DNA from: a virus
IMG/VR virus record: IMGVR_UViG_3300033145_000551
Span: 1 to 34,282 of that record
Length of the DNA stretch: 34,282 nt
Strand: one strand, 5' to 3'
Notes under the pieces: generated by a model
What the model saw: the letters and a program-made list of their open reading frames with translations, nothing else
What the model was told of the DNA's origin: nothing
The model's database searches: none
Program-made: the position numbers and the translations under genes
Part shown: in pieces, positions 9,624-34,282 of the stretch
Layout: the number at the start of each line of letters is the position of its first letter
Numbering within the stretch: the stretch's first letter is position 1

Positions 9624-10101
9624 GCGCCTGTTTAACATGTCGCAAGCACACGTACCACATAATCGTCCATCGTGGGACGAAGTATTTTTACAGATAGCAA
9701 TTGATATAGCCAAGCGCAGCCCCGACTCTGAAACACAGGTTGGGGCTGTAATTGTTGATAGCAACAAGCATATCTTATCCGTAGGATACAATGGTTGGAT
9801 GCCAGGTATTGACGACTCAATAATACCCAACACCCGACCCGGAAAACACAACTGGGTATTACATGCTGAACTCAACTCTATACTCAACTGTGAACATCGT
9901 CCCAAGGGCGCCACGCTATATTCTACGCACAAGCCTTGTCTCCCATGTTTTTTTTGTTGTGTTGCCGCTGCCATCGTCGAAATGGTGTATATTAACGATA
10001 GTCCCACCACCAATACTATTCACCAGGATGTTGAGTGGGAGGTGGCAGTATTTTTAGCACGTGACAAAATCAAAGTACGAAACGTGGAATGGCCACGTTA
10101 A
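9517..10101 (+). CDS. Deoxycytidylate (dCMP) deaminase
   Basis: Converts dCMP to dUMP, the substrate of ThyX. The core begins at N49-R-P-S-W-D-E, then IAKRSPDSETQVGAVIV and GYNGWMPG, all typical of the family. H116-A-E118 gives the first zinc ligand and catalytic Glu; KPCLPC (C141, C144) gives the other two. The start at 9517 is preceded by GGAAAG and gives 194 residues, with about 45 residues ahead of the usual family start. A start at 9637, just before the core, is possible but has no good ribosome binding site. Confidence 0.9.
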   Translation: MTMTLQQWTPQDFMMAEWVDAHPEIKNAHLSQKAVKRLFNMSQAHVPHNRPSWDEVFLQIAIDIAKRSPDSETQVGAVIVDSNKHILSVGYNGWMPGIDDSIIPNTRPGKHNWVLHAELNSILNCEHRPKGATLYSTHKPCLPCFFCCVAAAIVEMVYINDSPTTNTIHQDVEWEVAVFLARDKIKVRNVEWPR

Positions 10102-16095: not shown

Positions 16096-16776
16096 ATGCC
16101 TGTCAAACCCGGCACTAAAGTTCTAGTTTTGAACGACGATTACGTTCCACTAAACACAGTGCATTGGAAAAAGGCAATCAAACGACTCTTTGAGTCACCT
16201 TGTGAACGCTGCCAAGAACGTGGATATGTCTACATCAACGGACGAAAGCAGACCTGCAATTACTGTCAGGGTAAAAAGACCTTGCCCCCCGCCACGCCAG
16301 TTGAATACTTTGACGCTGGTTATTCCGTGCGTGACGGACGAGGCAATGAGCATTTAGTACCCGCAGTTATTGCAAACGTCCACCACGTACGACGCAAGTA
16401 CCGCAAAGTGCCCTTTTCCAAATCCAATATCCTACGACGTGATGGATTTCGTTGTCAGTTCTGTGGTACGCAGTTTCCGCCACATGAATTGACCATGGAC
16501 CACGTGGTCCCACGCAGCATGTGGAATGGCAATGATACGCCCACGTGTTGGACCAATATCGTCGCCGCATGTCGCAAGTGTAACCTGACCAAGGCCAATC
16601 GCACACCAGCCCAGGCCGGTATGCCGCTACGTAAATTGGTCAATGGATGTTATTGGATAATCTATAAACATCCCAAGGCACCCACGGCCCAGGAAATCAC
16701 ACTGGGACTTACATATCGTATCACTCCCCACGAATGGGAAATTTATGTGGCTCCATTCAGAAAAAGTCTCCCATAA
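16096..16776 (+). CDS. HNH endonuclease with an extra zinc-knuckle insert
   Basis: 226 residues. The C-terminal HNH fold is clear: ILRRDGFRCQFCG (about 113-125), LTMDHVVPRS (132-141), then W-x-N-I-V-A-A-C-R-K-C-N and RTPAQAGM. The two C-x-x-C pairs are structural zinc sites. N-terminally, CERC and CNYCQGKK (about residues 36-59) form a DnaJ-like zinc motif not found in most HNH enzymes of this type. It may be a free-standing homing nuclease or a DNA-processing enzyme. The gene ends the 13765-16776 block and precedes a promoter. Confidence 0.85.
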   Translation: MPVKPGTKVLVLNDDYVPLNTVHWKKAIKRLFESPCERCQERGYVYINGRKQTCNYCQGKKTLPPATPVEYFDAGYSVRDGRGNEHLVPAVIANVHHVRRKYRKVPFSKSNILRRDGFRCQFCGTQFPPHELTMDHVVPRSMWNGNDTPTCWTNIVAACRKCNLTKANRTPAQAGMPLRKLVNGCYWIIYKHPKAPTAQEITLGLTYRITPHEWEIYVAPFRKSLP

Positions 16777-28335: not shown

Positions 28336-28552
28336 GATAAATCTTAACCGAAAGTTAATGACACATAGTATCGTTGCCCAATTACGCGACACCGCCAAGT
28401 CCAAGGGCATGTTAGCGGGTTCAGCCATTGTCGAACTACTGGATGAATACGACCGTATGCGCTACTTGATGGAAGGACTAGTAACTTCCTACGAACGGAA
28501 TGATGAGGTTAAAACACGTAAGGTAATTGAAGTATTAAGGATGCTGTTATGA
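28256..28552 (+). CDS. Hypothetical basic helical protein
   Basis: 98 residues starting at an ATG 80 bases inside the upstream gene. The N-terminal 25 residues are basic and Pro/Thr-rich. From about residue 35, a helical C-terminal part (THSIVAQLRDTAKSKG, then AIVELLDEYDRMRYLMEGLV) follows. No catalytic motif. The stop overlaps the next start (ATGA), so the two are probably translated together. Confidence 0.62.
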   Translation: MAKLPRKHGRKIQTTPVNTPQTPQRVEINLNRKLMTHSIVAQLRDTAKSKGMLAGSAIVELLDEYDRMRYLMEGLVTSYERNDEVKTRKVIEVLRMLL

Positions 28553-29001
28553 ACAGGGACACATTTGAAAAACTAGTCTGGGATGTCGTCAAGGACCAGC
28601 GAAATCAGACCATGGTGGTTGACAATTTCCACGCCTATGGTATAATAAAGAACAGGGTAGACTCCTTTTGGGAGCAGGTGCGCTTACTACAGCCCGATGA
28701 TGACCAACTGATGATATTGGGTGGACTCGTAGCCATTGCAGCTTATGCTCAATTAGCTGCGGAAAACCTGGCATTAGCACCCGAACAATTGGGATATGAC
28801 GACCGACACGAGGCCGCTGAACAGGATGCCATAGAAGCCGGTGGGGTGTTTCACCGATTGATTAGCACTATCAATCAATCAAAACAACCTGTTCGGTCTT
28901 TACAAAAAGGAACTCCAAGGTTTGCTTTTGAATTTAACGCAGACCAATTGTATGCTTGGATAGCTCAGGCACATGATATAAGTCAAGAGGAATTAGCATG
29001 A
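28549..29001 (+). CDS. Conserved helical phage protein
   Basis: 150 residues, ATGA-coupled both up- and downstream. Mostly helical: MNRDTFEKLVWDVVKDQR, then SFWEQVRLL, then MILGGLVAIAAYAQLAAENLAL (hydrophobic but not clearly a membrane segment), then a charged helix and a C-terminal helix. I recognise the overall pattern as a phage protein of unknown function. An internal promoter (28619) lies within it. Confidence 0.68.
   Translation: MNRDTFEKLVWDVVKDQRNQTMVVDNFHAYGIIKNRVDSFWEQVRLLQPDDDQLMILGGLVAIAAYAQLAAENLALAPEQLGYDDRHEAAEQDAIEAGGVFHRLISTINQSKQPVRSLQKGTPRFAFEFNADQLYAWIAQAHDISQEELA
28619..28646 (+). promoter_or_regulatory. Sigma-70-type promoter inside gene 28549-29001
   Basis: TTGACA (28619-28624), 16-base spacer, TATAAT (28641-28646), preceded by TGG (an extended -10). 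The context GGTTGACAATT is shared with 6114 and 16779. It could supply transcripts to the endonuclease and the polymerase gene that follow. Confidence 0.5.
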
Positions 29002-30104
29002 GCGAATATGTAGGAACACTAAGCAAAGAAGGTGGCGTGGACATTAACATGGAGCCATGGAGTCATATCAAGGGCGTTTATGAAATTCGTAATATGGTTA
29101 ATGGTTGGTGTTATGTGGGGGGTTGTAACCGTGCCAGTGGTGGAGTACGGACTAGAATACATGGCCATAGCAGTGGCCTAAATAATACTAACACTCAACA
29201 TGGTAAAGAATTTCTAGCAGACTGGCATCATGGACATAAATTTCAAGTAAGCTTGATGGCAGAGTACAAGATTGGAAGCATCATTCCGCTTACCACACTA
29301 GAAAAAAAACACTTGGATAAGTTGAGGTCAAATGGCATACCAACATACAATGTAAAGCCACCCAACGCAAGAAAAATTAGTTTTACAGATAAGGAAGCGC
29401 CGCAGGTTGAAGCAAAAATTCTATCAAATTGTACTGGTACTGATGACCCCAATAAATGTTGGTTATGGAATGGCAACATCGACAGCCGGGGTTATGGCAA
29501 AATGTGTCGTAAAGGCAAAAATTGTCTGGTACATCGCTTATTATATCAATTGAAACATCCTGATATAGATATCTCTGGATATCATATACGTCATGGAGAT
29601 AATTGTCCGAAACACTGCTGCAATCCAGCACACATGAAGAGGGGCGGTCATCAACAAAATGCCAATGATAGCGCTATAAAATATGAACTTAGGGGTCGTA
29701 CATACACGTGCTATGAGTTGTCGCAACTGGATGAGAGCCACAAAGACGTAACGCCAGAAATGATACGTATGCGTATACAAAACGGATATGATGTTTACCG
29801 TGCCATGACACAGGCTCCCGCTAGCAATGCTGGGAAAGCCCACTTATCACACGAACAGCAAGAACTTATAGTTCAACGACATAAAGACAAATGGACACTT
29901 AAACAAATTGGTACTCAAGTTGGTTGTCATCCGACAACCGTTAGTAGGATTCTACGCAATAGCAATATACATGAGAGCCAGCAAGCCCAAAAAAAACGAG
30001 GAATACAATGGTTACGTGAAAATCCACAAGCTACATATAACGAAACAAGGGAAACATTCGACATAAAGCGTCGCACATATAACAGATGGAAAAAACTCGT
30101 ATGA
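28998..30104 (+). CDS. GIY-YIG + HNH + helix-turn-helix endonuclease
   Basis: 368 residues with two different nuclease domains in one chain. The GIY-YIG domain: G26-V-Y28, then Y39-V-G41, R53 in RTRIHGH, E102 in TLEKK, N118 in TYNVK. The HNH domain: CWLWNG (154-159), GYG, L-V-H179-R, H-I-R-H199-G-D, C-x-N-P-A-H (208-212) and N221, as in His-Me finger HNH_3 enzymes. After it, a YELRGRTYTCYELSQL / TPEMIRMRI helix-turn-helix-like NUMOD segment (229-260) and a resolvase-type HTH (about 296-320). Probably a homing endonuclease; its stop overlaps the dnaE start by ATGA. Confidence 0.88.
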   Translation: MSEYVGTLSKEGGVDINMEPWSHIKGVYEIRNMVNGWCYVGGCNRASGGVRTRIHGHSSGLNNTNTQHGKEFLADWHHGHKFQVSLMAEYKIGSIIPLTTLEKKHLDKLRSNGIPTYNVKPPNARKISFTDKEAPQVEAKILSNCTGTDDPNKCWLWNGNIDSRGYGKMCRKGKNCLVHRLLYQLKHPDIDISGYHIRHGDNCPKHCCNPAHMKRGGHQQNANDSAIKYELRGRTYTCYELSQLDESHKDVTPEMIRMRIQNGYDVYRAMTQAPASNAGKAHLSHEQQELIVQRHKDKWTLKQIGTQVGCHPTTVSRILRNSNIHESQQAQKKRGIQWLRENPQATYNETRETFDIKRRTYNRWKKLV

Positions 30105-32062
30105 ACACATACTTCCCGCTTCATGTTCATTCGCACTACTCTTTATTAGATGGACTTGCCAAGCCCCTACAAATTGCCAATCGGTGTAAAGACCTTGGCC
30201 TAGCCGGGTCTGCTCTAACCGACCATGGCACCGTTGCTGGTGTAATATCATTCATGGATGCAATGAAAAAAAAAGAACTACAAGCCATCATGGGTTGTGA
30301 AATGTACATCGCACCCAGGGATGCTACACTGAGAGATGGAGACCGCACCCTGCATCACCTGGTGGTACTGGCCAAGAACCTAGACGGATGGCATCAACTT
30401 ATTCAAGCTACCAGTGAAGCCAATCGACCTGAACACTTCTACTATAAACCCCGCTTAGACCTGGAGCGTCTCGCGCCATATGCTAATGGTAATCTAATAG
30501 CATTCAGTGGACATCTTGGTTCTCATTTGTCTTCCTGTATTTTTTCTGATACCAACGCCCTACACAACTGTCTCACCGCAGACGAGGCCAAACGATTTAC
30601 ACGCAGCGATTGGGTTAAGCGCACCACCGAGGAGGCAGAGCGTCTTCAAGAGATATTTGGCAAGGGCAACTTCTTCATAGAAATACAACTGATAGATTCT
30701 AAGAACATGCCAGCGATGAACTTACTGGCCACCGGTCTGAGATATGTTTCCAAGCAAACTGGCATTCCCTGCATAGCTACGCCCGACGCACATTACGCAG
30801 AGAGAGCAGATGCTTACGACCAACGTACCCTGCTATGTAACTCACTCAATACCAACTTCAGAGAAATCAATGACAAATTAGTACGTGGAGAAGACATAGG
30901 ACTGGCCACGTTTTTTAAGTCCAACAATTATCACATACCCGCATACGATGAGATGTTAGACAGTGGTAATACTAAAGAAGAACTGGCCAACACACTCCAA
31001 GTGGCATCTATGTGTGAGGAATATAAGCTAACTGGACCACCCATGTTGCCTCAATTTCCATGTCCCGACAATGTGTCATCCAAGGACTATCTGAGACAAC
31101 TAATCGACAAGGGCTGGACCAAACGCTGGCCAAAGATTCAACACATTATTGATACCACACATCATACTGAAGAAGAATATCGCGCACGCTTAGAAACAGA
31201 GTTTGCTACGCTAACCGACATTGGCCTAGCAGATTATTTTCTGATTGTACATGACATCATAGACTGGGCACGCAAACAGGGACAGATTACGGGGGCTGGA
31301 CGTGGGTCTGCCGCAGGTTCTTTAATTCTCTATCTTTTGGAAGCCACTCATGTGGACCCCATTGAATATGACCTGTTGTTTGAAAGGTTTTATAACGCCG
31401 GTCGTAATACCGCCGACCGCATAAGCCTACCAGACGTTGATATGGACTTTGAGATTCAACAACGCGGCAAGGTCATGGAGTATATTCGGGAGCGCTATGG
31501 CATCGACCGCGTAGCTCAGATGCTTACGTTTACACGCTTGCAGGGTCGCGGTGCTTTGAAGGATGTGTTACGTGCTCACGCTGCGTGTTCATACGAAGAA
31601 ATGAACCGTATCACACTACACATTCCTGATGAGGCAGAAATTAGCGACCAGTTGCAGGCTATGAAAGAGCTTGACAAAAAAGCCGGTGGTGATGGAGAAG
31701 CCTCTATTATTATGTGGGCACTAGAACACAACACGGAAGAACTTAAACAGTGGGCCTTCTTAGATGACGACCACAATATCCAAGGTCCACTTTCCAAGAT
31801 GTTTGAACAGGCCATACGCATAGAAGGTACGAAGAAATCCCAGTCTAAACACGCCGCCGGTCTTGTAATTGCACAGGAACCACTGGCTCAAATATGTCCC
31901 ATGATATATGACAAGAGTAGTGGTGAAATGATATGTGGACTGGAAATGAATGACTTGGAAAGTATGGGGCATGTCAAATTTGACATCCTTGGAGTTGCGT
32001 TATTGGACAAGATACATGGTATTCTCAACTTGCTGAAATATGGAGAACTCACGTATGACTGA
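30101..32062 (+). CDS. dnaE: DNA polymerase III alpha subunit, N-terminal part (PHP and palm)
   Basis: 653 residues from the ATG at 30101 (ATGA overlap; an ATG at 30086 adds 5). The PHP domain opens with LHVHSHYSLLDG (H8, H10, H12). The palm has GRGSAAGS (400-407), PDVDMDFE with D445 and D447, and VKFD with D628, matching the E. coli D401/D403/D555 triad, so all catalytic acids are here. The chain ends at K-Y-G-E-L-T-Y-D about 30 residues after the third Asp, before the fingers. The gene at 33956 resumes with the fingers start, so this DnaE is split. A full E. coli alpha is 1160 residues. Likely assembles with the second fragment. Confidence 0.95.
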   Translation: MNTYFPLHVHSHYSLLDGLAKPLQIANRCKDLGLAGSALTDHGTVAGVISFMDAMKKKELQAIMGCEMYIAPRDATLRDGDRTLHHLVVLAKNLDGWHQLIQATSEANRPEHFYYKPRLDLERLAPYANGNLIAFSGHLGSHLSSCIFSDTNALHNCLTADEAKRFTRSDWVKRTTEEAERLQEIFGKGNFFIEIQLIDSKNMPAMNLLATGLRYVSKQTGIPCIATPDAHYAERADAYDQRTLLCNSLNTNFREINDKLVRGEDIGLATFFKSNNYHIPAYDEMLDSGNTKEELANTLQVASMCEEYKLTGPPMLPQFPCPDNVSSKDYLRQLIDKGWTKRWPKIQHIIDTTHHTEEEYRARLETEFATLTDIGLADYFLIVHDIIDWARKQGQITGAGRGSAAGSLILYLLEATHVDPIEYDLLFERFYNAGRNTADRISLPDVDMDFEIQQRGKVMEYIRERYGIDRVAQMLTFTRLQGRGALKDVLRAHAACSYEEMNRITLHIPDEAEISDQLQAMKELDKKAGGDGEASIIMWALEHNTEELKQWAFLDDDHNIQGPLSKMFEQAIRIEGTKKSQSKHAAGLVIAQEPLAQICPMIYDKSSGEMICGLEMNDLESMGHVKFDILGVALLDKIHGILNLLKYGELTYD

Positions 32063-32285
32063 TGAATTTGAAGAATATCGAAAAACTCTAGGTGACAAGG
32101 TAGTAGATACCTTTATTGCTAAGTTTGGTCTCGGACCAGATTTTACACCAATACAAGACTCACATGAATGTCCACAGTGCGGACAAAACAATGCATATTA
32201 CAAGGAGCTTCATGCTGATTGTAATGGTGGCCAAAACACCATTGTGTTGCATTGTCCTGACTGTGGGTGGAGCGAAGATATATAA
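32055..32285 (+). CDS. Small zinc-ribbon protein in the dnaE interval
   Basis: 76 residues from the ATG at 32055, overlapping the dnaE stop by 8 bases; GGAGAAC precedes. ECPQCGQ (about residues 38-44) and HCPDCGWS (about 66-73) form a classical two-pair zinc ribbon. The N-terminal 30 residues are a charged helix. It is the first gene of the interval that separates the two dnaE parts. Function unknown; a polymerase-linked DNA-binding role is conceivable. Confidence 0.72.
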   Translation: MTDEFEEYRKTLGDKVVDTFIAKFGLGPDFTPIQDSHECPQCGQNNAYYKELHADCNGGQNTIVLHCPDCGWSEDI

Positions 32286-32316
32286 CTAACCCAACTTGTT
32301 TTATTAGGACCGACCC

Positions 32317-33000
32317 ATGGACAACAGACATTTTTTATGCTTCGACTTCGAGACAGGCGGCAAATCCACAGAAACCGCAGAAATACTTCAGATTGGTGCC
32401 TGTGTTATTGACCGTAATTCGCTCAAGATAAAAGACAGCTTCACCTCTTTAATGAAGCCCGAAGATTTTGATGCGCTAGAAGAAGAGGCGCTTCAAGTCA
32501 ACGGGCTTACGCGAGAGCAGCTTGCCGAGGCTCCCGAGGCCAGTGTCATGTTCCCCACCTTCGCCGCTTGGATTCAAAAGTTCAACATCAACAAGACCAA
32601 GAATTCGTTTGGCGCACCCATTCCTGTCACCTGGGGTGGTGACCGCTTCGACATCCCCATCCTAGACCGCTATTGCAAGGACTATGGATACTGGGACAAA
32701 AAATGGGGCAACAGCACATTGGTTAATCCCGTGTTCACATTTGATGTGATGAAACACATGTGGTTTTGGACACGTACATTAGCCGACGTAAAGAACGTGA
32801 AACTCGTTACGGTCTTAGAATGGATGGGAGTTTCACCCGATGAAATTGCCGAATGTGCCCATGATGCTATGTGGGATGTGGAGTGGACTGCCAAAATTGC
32901 TATTCGATTATTGAAGACTGGCGTATACTTAACCAGTGTTAACGAAGAGGGTCAACGTCGTTTGAATATGGAAGGATGTTTCACGTCATGCATAAAATAG
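32317..33000 (+). CDS. DnaQ-like DEDDh 3'-5' exonuclease
   Basis: 227 residues. Exo I F-D10-F-E12-T-G-G, Exo II with D near FDIPILDRY (about residues 109-117), and Exo III with H and D in CAHDAMWDVEWTA (about residues 176-188), the DEDDh arrangement. It is the size of a free DnaQ epsilon-like proofreading subunit. Placement between the two parts of dnaE strongly suggests proofreading for the phage polymerase. It lies 31 bases after the preceding stop. The codon usage of the first half is somewhat GC-richer than its neighbours. Confidence 0.9.
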   Translation: MDNRHFLCFDFETGGKSTETAEILQIGACVIDRNSLKIKDSFTSLMKPEDFDALEEEALQVNGLTREQLAEAPEASVMFPTFAAWIQKFNINKTKNSFGAPIPVTWGGDRFDIPILDRYCKDYGYWDKKWGNSTLVNPVFTFDVMKHMWFWTRTLADVKNVKLVTVLEWMGVSPDEIAECAHDAMWDVEWTAKIAIRLLKTGVYLTSVNEEGQRRLNMEGCFTSCIK

Positions 33001-33296
33001 TTGATAAAAACCGACACGACAATGATGCTGTGGGTGGACTATGTTGTCCCCTGTGTGGAATCAAATTGACACTACTGGAACGCACACCACCCCCAGAAAT
33101 TGACTGGGGTAGCGATGATACACAAACCATCAAGCGCCAAGAAACCTGGTGGAAGCACTTTGAAAAGTGCAAGCGTGATGAGTATGCATGTCCTAATGGT
33201 CACTTTGAAAAAGACTTTCCGTTATATCACCATCAGCCGTTCCAGGGCATCGACAGTGCGCCAGGCGATAGTTGGTCTCTAAGTTGGGTGAAATAA
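32988..33296 (+). CDS. Small Cys/His-rich protein
   Basis: 102 residues from the ATG at 32988; an ATG at 32976 adds four but its GGAAGG is too close. LCCPLCG (about residues 18-24) plus a later H-F-E-K-C and ACPNGHF form a plausible zinc site. The rest is charged with several Trp and Pro. Unrecognised. The start lies within the end of the exonuclease gene. Confidence 0.62.
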   Translation: MHKIVDKNRHDNDAVGGLCCPLCGIKLTLLERTPPPEIDWGSDDTQTIKRQETWWKHFEKCKRDEYACPNGHFEKDFPLYHHQPFQGIDSAPGDSWSLSWVK

Positions 33297-33297
33297 A

Positions 33298-33537
33298 ATG
33301 ATAAGTGAACTATTAAGTGCTATCTTACCTACCGTACGTGTATTCCAAATTAAAGACGGCAGGGTTCACCAACGACTCCACACTTTTGTGTGTGTTGCCG
33401 TACCCAGGGTGGGTGAATATATAGCTGTAGAACACGAGTCATGGCCAGTTGTCAAAGTACAATGGGTCATCACAGAACCTAGTGTTCACATGGTTAATGT
33501 GTATGTAATGGAACTGGAACCACAAAATGATGAATAA
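33298..33537 (+). CDS. Small PRVG-motif protein, first of three tandem paralogs
   Basis: 79 residues. Shares with the next two proteins a strand R-V-F-Q, a D-G turn, H-x-R-L, then VAVPRVGEYI (about residues 39-48) and V-x-V-x-W near residue 59, followed by an acidic end. The pattern suggests a small beta-barrel or SH3-like domain. No catalytic residues stand out. Start one base after the upstream stop. Confidence 0.7.
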   Translation: MISELLSAILPTVRVFQIKDGRVHQRLHTFVCVAVPRVGEYIAVEHESWPVVKVQWVITEPSVHMVNVYVMELEPQNDE

Positions 33538-33739
33538 AGAAATACACACACGTGTATTCCAACTGAACGACGGCGGGATTCACAAACGACTCTCGTCATT
33601 CGTATGCACAGCCGTGCCACGTGTAGGTGACCATATCAACTCGCAATATGAATCTTTCTTAGTAAGACAGGTTCGGTGGTGCATAGACGAATCAAACCAC
33701 AAGGTTGAGTATGTGGATGTGTATGTAGAGGAGCCATAA
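33530..33739 (+). CDS. Small PRVG-motif protein, second of three
   Basis: 69 residues from the second of two overlapping ATGs (33527 or 33530), overlapping the upstream stop. T-R-V-F-Q-L-N-D-G, H-K-R-L, then AVPRVGDHI and V-R-W follow the order of its neighbours, so it arose by duplication. It is closest to the first copy. Function unknown. Confidence 0.7.
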   Translation: MNKEIHTRVFQLNDGGIHKRLSSFVCTAVPRVGDHINSQYESFLVRQVRWCIDESNHKVEYVDVYVEEP

Positions 33740-33740
33740 A

Positions 33741-33956
33741 ATGAATAACGAAATACGCATACGCATATACTTAATGTTTAGCAATGGCGACCCAACTCAA
33801 TTCCTTAGAGTCTTTCATGGTTCAGTGGTACCGCGCGTAGGTGAGTATTTTCGCTTACATGGCACGAGCCACCCTATTGTAGATGTAACCTGGGAGATGA
33901 TTGACCACGAACTATGCGCCAATGTTTATGTTGGAGAGACTGAGGAGCCACTATAA
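33741..33956 (+). CDS. Small PRVG-motif protein, third of three
   Basis: 71 residues. R-I-Y replaces R-V-F, then VVPRVGEYF (about residues 31-39), then IVDVTWE, and an acidic end. It is the most diverged of the three. The stop TAA shares its last A with the ATG of the second dnaE part, so the paralogs and the polymerase fragment are coupled. Confidence 0.7.
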   Translation: MNNEIRIRIYLMFSNGDPTQFLRVFHGSVVPRVGEYFRLHGTSHPIVDVTWEMIDHELCANVYVGETEEPL

Positions 33957-34282
33957 TGGGCAAAATAGTTTTCAATTGTGGCTGTGAGTTTCCTATCATC
34001 AATAGTGATGAAGAAATCCATGCCGACCTTTACGACAAACAACTCCCTACGGGGATTGATGTGGATATATACAACATTCCACATGATTGCCCTCGTACGT
34101 GGGCGTTGCTTGCCGAAGGCCGGACCAAGGGCGTCTTCCAACTCGAAGGACACCTAGGTAAAACATGGGCTCACAAAGTTGAACCAGAAAACATAGAAGA
34201 GTTGGCTGCATTAGTAGCATTGATAAGACCAGGATGTATTCGGGCTGTGTCTAAACCTGCTGTACGTTTCTTATATGACATG
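33956..34282 (+). CDS. dnaE: DNA polymerase III alpha, second part (fingers), truncated by window end
   Basis: 109 codons open to the window end. Residues about 39-57 (IDVDIYNIPHDCPRTWALL) and about 58-70 (AEGRTKGVFQLEG) then WAHKVEPENIEELAALVALIRPG match the start of the DnaE fingers, where the family reads G-D-T-x-G-V-F-Q-L-E-S and then R-P-G. The N-terminal 25 residues (FNCGCEFPII) contain two Cys and are not part of standard DnaE. It starts on its own ATG, so it is a separate polypeptide. It continues where the 30101 protein stops. Confidence 0.92.
   Translation, partial: MGKIVFNCGCEFPIINSDEEIHADLYDKQLPTGIDVDIYNIPHDCPRTWALLAEGRTKGVFQLEGHLGKTWAHKVEPENIEELAALVALIRPGCIRAVSKPAVRFLYDM

Follow-up and report, generated by a model that had tools for sequence, protein, structure and literature searches.

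The closest analogues of the protein described in this study are engineered enzymes. In MegaTev and TevCas9, the GIY-YIG domain of I-TevI has been placed on the N-terminus of a second nuclease, which results in two cuts per target (PMC5751168). The phage homing endonucleases covered by the open-access literature that we surveyed carry one nuclease domain each, and no natural homing protein combining GIY-YIG and HNH domains was found in this literature (subscription papers were outside its scope). A natural fusion of a GIY-YIG domain with endonuclease III, COG1833 of the Methanococcales, is described in the accessible part of a 2006 survey of GIY-YIG architectures; this part presents NUMOD and many other fusions, and contains no mention of an HNH fusion (PMC1564403). 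The free-standing endonucleases of phage T4 adjoin a gene, and most of those with a known target cut that neighbour; how a single HNH nick initiates homing is stated to be an open question (PMC2988022).

The stretch of viral DNA analysed here (34,282 nt; referred to as the window) contains an ORF (28998..30104, + strand) with a continuous frame over 368 codons. Its product carries nuclease domains of two kinds, each with its active site preserved, and very probably acts as a homing endonuclease. The protein is composed of (i) an N-terminal GIY-YIG domain, (ii) a linker, (iii) a central HNH/His-Me domain, (iv) a segment spanning residues 230-275, (v) a helix-turn-helix (HTH) and (vi) a C-terminal helix. 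The presence of GIY-YIG and HNH domains in one protein, claimed in an initial annotation of the window, is borne out by the uninterrupted ORF and by profile and fold matches: domain searches and structure prediction relate the GIY-YIG domain to I-TevI and the HNH domain to I-PpoI and I-HmuI. The two halves of the protein were modelled separately with AlphaFold, and the relative placement of the domains lies outside the prediction. The G+C content of the gene is 41.1%, compared with 44.4% for the whole window. No intron family of the Rfam database was found in the window, so the gene is, as far as can be discerned, not intron-encoded.

This protein resembles MegaTev and TevCas9 in that a single chain carries a GIY-YIG domain N-terminal to a second nuclease. 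It differs from these man-made enzymes, whose partner is a LAGLIDADG protein or Cas9, in being natural and in having a homing-type His-Me HNH partner. COG1833 is similar in being a natural fusion of a GIY-YIG domain to a second DNA-cleaving domain; it differs in its repair-type partner, in belonging to another GIY-YIG family and in not being encoded by a homing gene.

The GIY-YIG domain comprises residues about 24-121 (29067..29360, + strand). The NCBIfam model of group I intron endonucleases (TIGR01453) matched residues 25-141 with E=2e-5, under the model's own cut-off, and the GIY-YIG domain of Pfam (PF01541) was not reported in the 368-aa protein. A profile built from the fetched relatives matched the protein with E=3e-15. 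In an alignment of 59 rows (the 368-aa protein and 58 viral relatives) the invariant columns are Y28, Y39, G41, R53, H57, F82, E102 and N118, all of which are present here, and the identity of the domain to any relative found is at most about 35%. The five key residues named in the initial annotation (Y28, Y39, R53, E102 and N118) are thus all kept, and they are invariant across the alignment. The AlphaFold model of this domain is of high confidence (pLDDT about 82-96 across residues 21-120) and is most similar to I-TevI (1mk0; Z 11.6, rmsd 2.0 A over 90 residues), with UvrC (Z 7.6) and other GIY-YIG proteins well below. The comparison of the profile with solved structures likewise retrieved the I-TevI catalytic domain (E=1.9e-26), the matched entries being active-site mutants; the mutated positions, R27 and E75 of I-TevI, align with R53 and E102 of this protein. 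The domain is likely to cut DNA. Besides the fold and the catalytic residues, the protein shares with I-TevI and the Seg endonucleases a layout in which the nuclease lies at the N-terminus and is tethered to DNA-binding elements at the C-terminus that include an HTH; the Seg genes, like this gene, are free-standing beside essential genes. Unlike in I-TevI and Seg, the GIY-YIG domain and the HTH are separated here by an HNH nuclease domain.

A short, apparently flexible linker (residues about 122-137; 29361..29408, + strand), modelled with low confidence, connects the GIY-YIG domain to the HNH/His-Me domain (residues about 138-229; 29409..29684, + strand). The latter contains C154, R180, H199, C207, H212 and N221, with D201 at the H+2 position and C203 nearby. 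Residues 130-229 matched HNH endonucleases of the PHROGs collection (phrog_1872, E=6.7e-18, as well as phrog_826 and phrog_3593), and a profile of the fetched HNH relatives matched the 368-aa protein with E=2e-23. Six columns (C154, H199, C207, P210, H212 and N221) are invariant in 44/44 rows of the HNH alignment; H179 and R180, both present here, occur in 42 of the 44. The H+2 position is occupied by cysteine in 43/44 rows, the sole exception being D201 of this protein, with C203 two residues further on. Among the zinc ligands of the I-PpoI type (C, C at H+2, C, H), C154, C207 and H212 are therefore present and the H+2 ligand is represented by D201; C203 may replace the displaced cysteine. 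By homology with I-PpoI, H199 is presumably the general base and N221 a metal ligand, while C154, C207 and H212 presumably form a structural zinc site. Of the four HNH residues initially listed as key (H179, H199, H212 and N221) all are present, but H212 would, by the same homology, be a structural zinc ligand rather than a catalytic residue.

Comparison of the HNH profile with solved structures yielded I-HmuI (E=0.002) and I-PpoI (E=0.009), and the I-PpoI match carries the motif H-x-C-x4-C-x4-H...N. The model of the domain matched I-PpoI with Z 7.0 over 91 residues and I-HmuI with Z 6.8 over 74 residues; a Z near 7 is by itself a middling value for the His-Me fold, with which the sequence profile concurs. 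The model also resembles the DNA-binding domains SMAD MH1 and NFI. With the C-terminal half as a query, Foldseek ranked SMAD MH1 first, with no I-PpoI among the best 50 matches; VIA-align recovered I-PpoI and I-HmuI. The His-Me fold and the motif are common to this domain and to Mob, I-HmuI, HNH endonucleases of the HNH_3 type and I-PpoI. Phage HNH homing endonucleases also have a free-standing placement and the same succession of HNH domain, DNA-binding module and HTH. Compared with these enzymes and I-PpoI, the protein has a complete GIY-YIG domain ahead of the HNH domain and a displaced H+2 zinc cysteine. The retained H199, R180 and N221 favour cutting by the HNH domain as well and the displaced cysteine weakens this prediction, to which we give somewhat better than even odds.

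The remainder of the protein constitutes a putative DNA-binding region. The segment following the HNH domain (residues about 230-275; 29685..29822, + strand) had been described as NUMOD-like. We could not recognise a NUMOD in it: no NUMOD family matched these residues, and the confidence of the model is low there. By eye, the segment resembles the one following the HNH domain in an HNH protein of a Klebsiella phage. The HTH (residues 281-322; 29838..29963, + strand) is a firm assignment (PF13384, residues 290-322, E=1.7e-9). As for its initial description as resolvase-like, HTH_7 (resolvase) scored below its cut-off. According to the model, the protein ends with a helical extension (residues about 331-368; 29988..30101, + strand).

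The gene is inserted precisely between two others. Its start overlaps the stop codon of the upstream ORF (28549-29001) by ATGA (28998..29001, + strand; GCATGAGC), and its stop codon overlaps in the same manner (30101..30104, + strand; CGTATGAACACATAC) the start of the gene encoding the N-terminal part of the DNA polymerase III alpha subunit (PHP and NTPase domains; 30101..32062, + strand), the downstream neighbour and presumed target side. Because the endonuclease gene ends on it with an ATGA overlap, the polymerase start is likely 30101 and not 30086. Both neighbours are intact. In the related locus L030, whose polymerase N-part is 73% identical, the endonuclease gene is absent, and the small upstream gene directly overlaps that of the polymerase by ATGA (...GATATTGTATGACGACATAC...). 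Since this site is empty and the gene of the window fits between two ATGA overlaps, we class it as a homing gene of the Seg/Mob type, free-standing and without an intron, set in a replication operon. The empty site, the placement and the domain content together give us high confidence in this classification. In T4, mobE also has its start on an upstream stop codon (PMC2988022). A double overlap of the ATGA type was also observed for annotated GIY-YIG/HNH genes of the crAss-like phage cr125_1 and phage AIIMS-Plu-RaNi, and among the fetched ORFs it occurs in 10/76 HNH and 2/78 GIY-YIG genes. Within the coding sequence of the upstream ORF there is a perfect extended sigma-70 promoter-like sequence (28619..28646, + strand; TTGACA-16-TATAAT with an extended -10), both hexamers of which are also found in L030 (about 9716-9743). 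It could act as a promoter for the endonuclease gene as well as for the polymerase gene.

The GIY-YIG and HNH combination appears to be rare. This protein is the sole fusion in a set of 83 unique GIY-YIG ORFs and 87 unique ORFs with HNH, with no second case detected among the other 82 and 86, respectively, even at E=10; this search is limited by the fact that the two seed sets were gathered separately, using short peptide patterns. Homologs with the same order of the two domains are accordingly absent from this set. Queries with the protein or with its parts retrieved no fused relative from viral contigs, genomes, annotated phages or plasmids. No close whole-protein homologue was found in IMG/VR or in bacterial and archaeal genomes, and the only relative in 22 related phage records was one weak match confined to GIY-YIG. 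In annotated phages and plasmids, no place reached a coverage of 80% at E<=10, and the displaced-cysteine HNH motif, used as a DNA pattern, had no match in IMG/VR. These results support the rarity of the architecture, short of proving that it is unique. A match in Yvonnetastic (query residues 8-224) was rejected as a fusion, as it is a spurious extension over the RtcB gene. In Pseudomonas phage U9 and in one other locus (L169), separate GIY-YIG and HNH homing-type genes are located near each other, an arrangement that is a possible source for a fusion.

We propose that a free-standing homing endonuclease gene encoding a modular two-nuclease protein invaded the junction of the upstream gene and the split polymerase III gene, and that it homes as follows; the probability of this reading is, in our estimation, about 0.58. 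The protein would consist of an I-TevI-type GIY-YIG domain, a short linker, an HNH domain of the I-PpoI/I-HmuI type and a C-terminal DNA-binding region with the HTH. The latter region, together with the HNH domain, would anchor the enzyme on a co-infecting relative in which the junction is uninterrupted. The GIY-YIG domain, on its flexible tether, would then make a break, and the HNH domain would add a nick or a second cut close by. Repair templated by the gene-carrying phage would copy the gene across. The order of the domains, the retention of the catalytic residues, the precise insertion between the ATGA overlaps and the absence of the gene from relatives are seen in the sequence or the models; homing itself, the target site and cutting by both active sites are what we infer. 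It had initially been suggested that two active sites could make two nicks or recognise a composite site; two cuts or nicks, or a composite site, would be a reasonable consequence, and dual cutting by one chain seems likely, if less certain in view of the displaced zinc cysteine. A more specific version, in which one natural chain would use two nucleases for homing, GIY-YIG making a double-strand break and HNH nicking or cutting at a set distance from it, is put forward tentatively. If true, a gap or long overhang would favour repair from the donor, the target would be destroyed, and the protein would be a natural counterpart of MegaTev and TevCas9. With a natural protein that both makes breaks and nicks, the question of nick-initiated homing would be directly testable via single active-site mutations. 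The protein would also provide a linker and a spacing shaped by evolution to the design of dual-cut nucleases, which have hitherto been built only by engineers.

The main alternative is that only the GIY-YIG domain cuts, and that the HNH domain has turned into a DNA-binding or spacing module, comparable to SMAD MH1 and NFI, which have the His-Me fold without cutting. The location of the HNH domain, between GIY-YIG and the HTH, is that of the zinc-finger linker of I-TevI (PMC2988022), which it would replace; the similarity of the HNH-half model to SMAD MH1 and NFI and the absence of one usual zinc cysteine from its normal place point in the same direction. However, H199, R180 and the metal-ligand residue N221 would be needless in a pure binding module, and we judge this explanation unlikely, albeit worth serious consideration. 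The reverse case, in which only the HNH domain cuts (by nicking, like the phage Mob proteins) and GIY-YIG is left over from an earlier endonuclease at this position, would agree with the fact that phage HNH enzymes elsewhere work alone and with the turnover of homing endonuclease genes at a single site, which has been discussed (PMC10448857). It is improbable given that the eight invariant GIY-YIG columns are intact despite an identity to the relatives of at most about 35%. It may also be considered that two adjacent endonuclease genes were joined by a sequencing or assembly artefact, as only a single copy of the fused gene is known. The frame is nevertheless continuous over its whole length, and there is no in-frame ATG, GTG or TTG between codons 109 and 169 from which the HNH part could be translated as a gene of its own in this frame; both outer junctions also fit the operon neatly. 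We consider an artefact very improbable, and retain the two-nuclease reading.

The initial annotation noted that the endonuclease gene is adjacent to the split polymerase gene, as is indeed the case (it abuts the N-part), and suggested that it could have caused the split. Endonuclease insertions do split other phage genes, e.g. nrdA by mobE in Aeh1 (PMC2988022). The related set comprises 28 loci (about 14 distinct polymerase lineages, including loci with the first half only). The polymerase halves are separate ORFs in 23/23 records showing both, with a gene encoding a DnaQ-like exonuclease between them in 22, and the split position, before the finger domain (window 30101-34282; L008-L033), is common to all 23. 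A profile search of the 28 loci and of the rest of the window revealed no other ORF of these GIY-YIG/HNH families; in L030, the nearest relative, the polymerase is split in the absence of the endonuclease gene. Moreover, the insertion point lies where the polymerase gene begins, about 2 kb away from the split. The proposed causal role is hence scarcely credible. Because all 23 two-half records have the split and none has the endonuclease gene, the split is an old, ancestral feature of the replicase in these phages; the simplest account of the endonuclease gene is that a single member of the group acquired it later.

Several other features were observed in this region and in the related loci. 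Between dnaQ and the polymerase C-part, the window contains three small tandem, paralogue-like ORFs (33298-33956; 79, 70 and 71 aa), which had no match in L030. The C-part opens with a short common segment, CGCEFPI / CGCTFNV, before the recognised finger domain (window 33956-34050; L030 14537; L031 16676 ORF). The C-parts of L030 (14537-16642) and L027 (14176-16866) carry intein-like inserts, e.g. ...SFNK CLSPTTVVETIDGKYYTLEDVDIG. The PD-(D/E)XK exonuclease genes of L028 (3771-5786) and L029 (7432-9432) also contain an intein-like insert, located after ...DWK, the first residue of which is, unusually, Gly (GLPLDTP...). The window has a second HNH endonuclease gene (16096-16776), which, belonging to a different family (phrog_16726, E=1.7e-25), lies directly after genes encoding an RNA ligase and a polynucleotide kinase.
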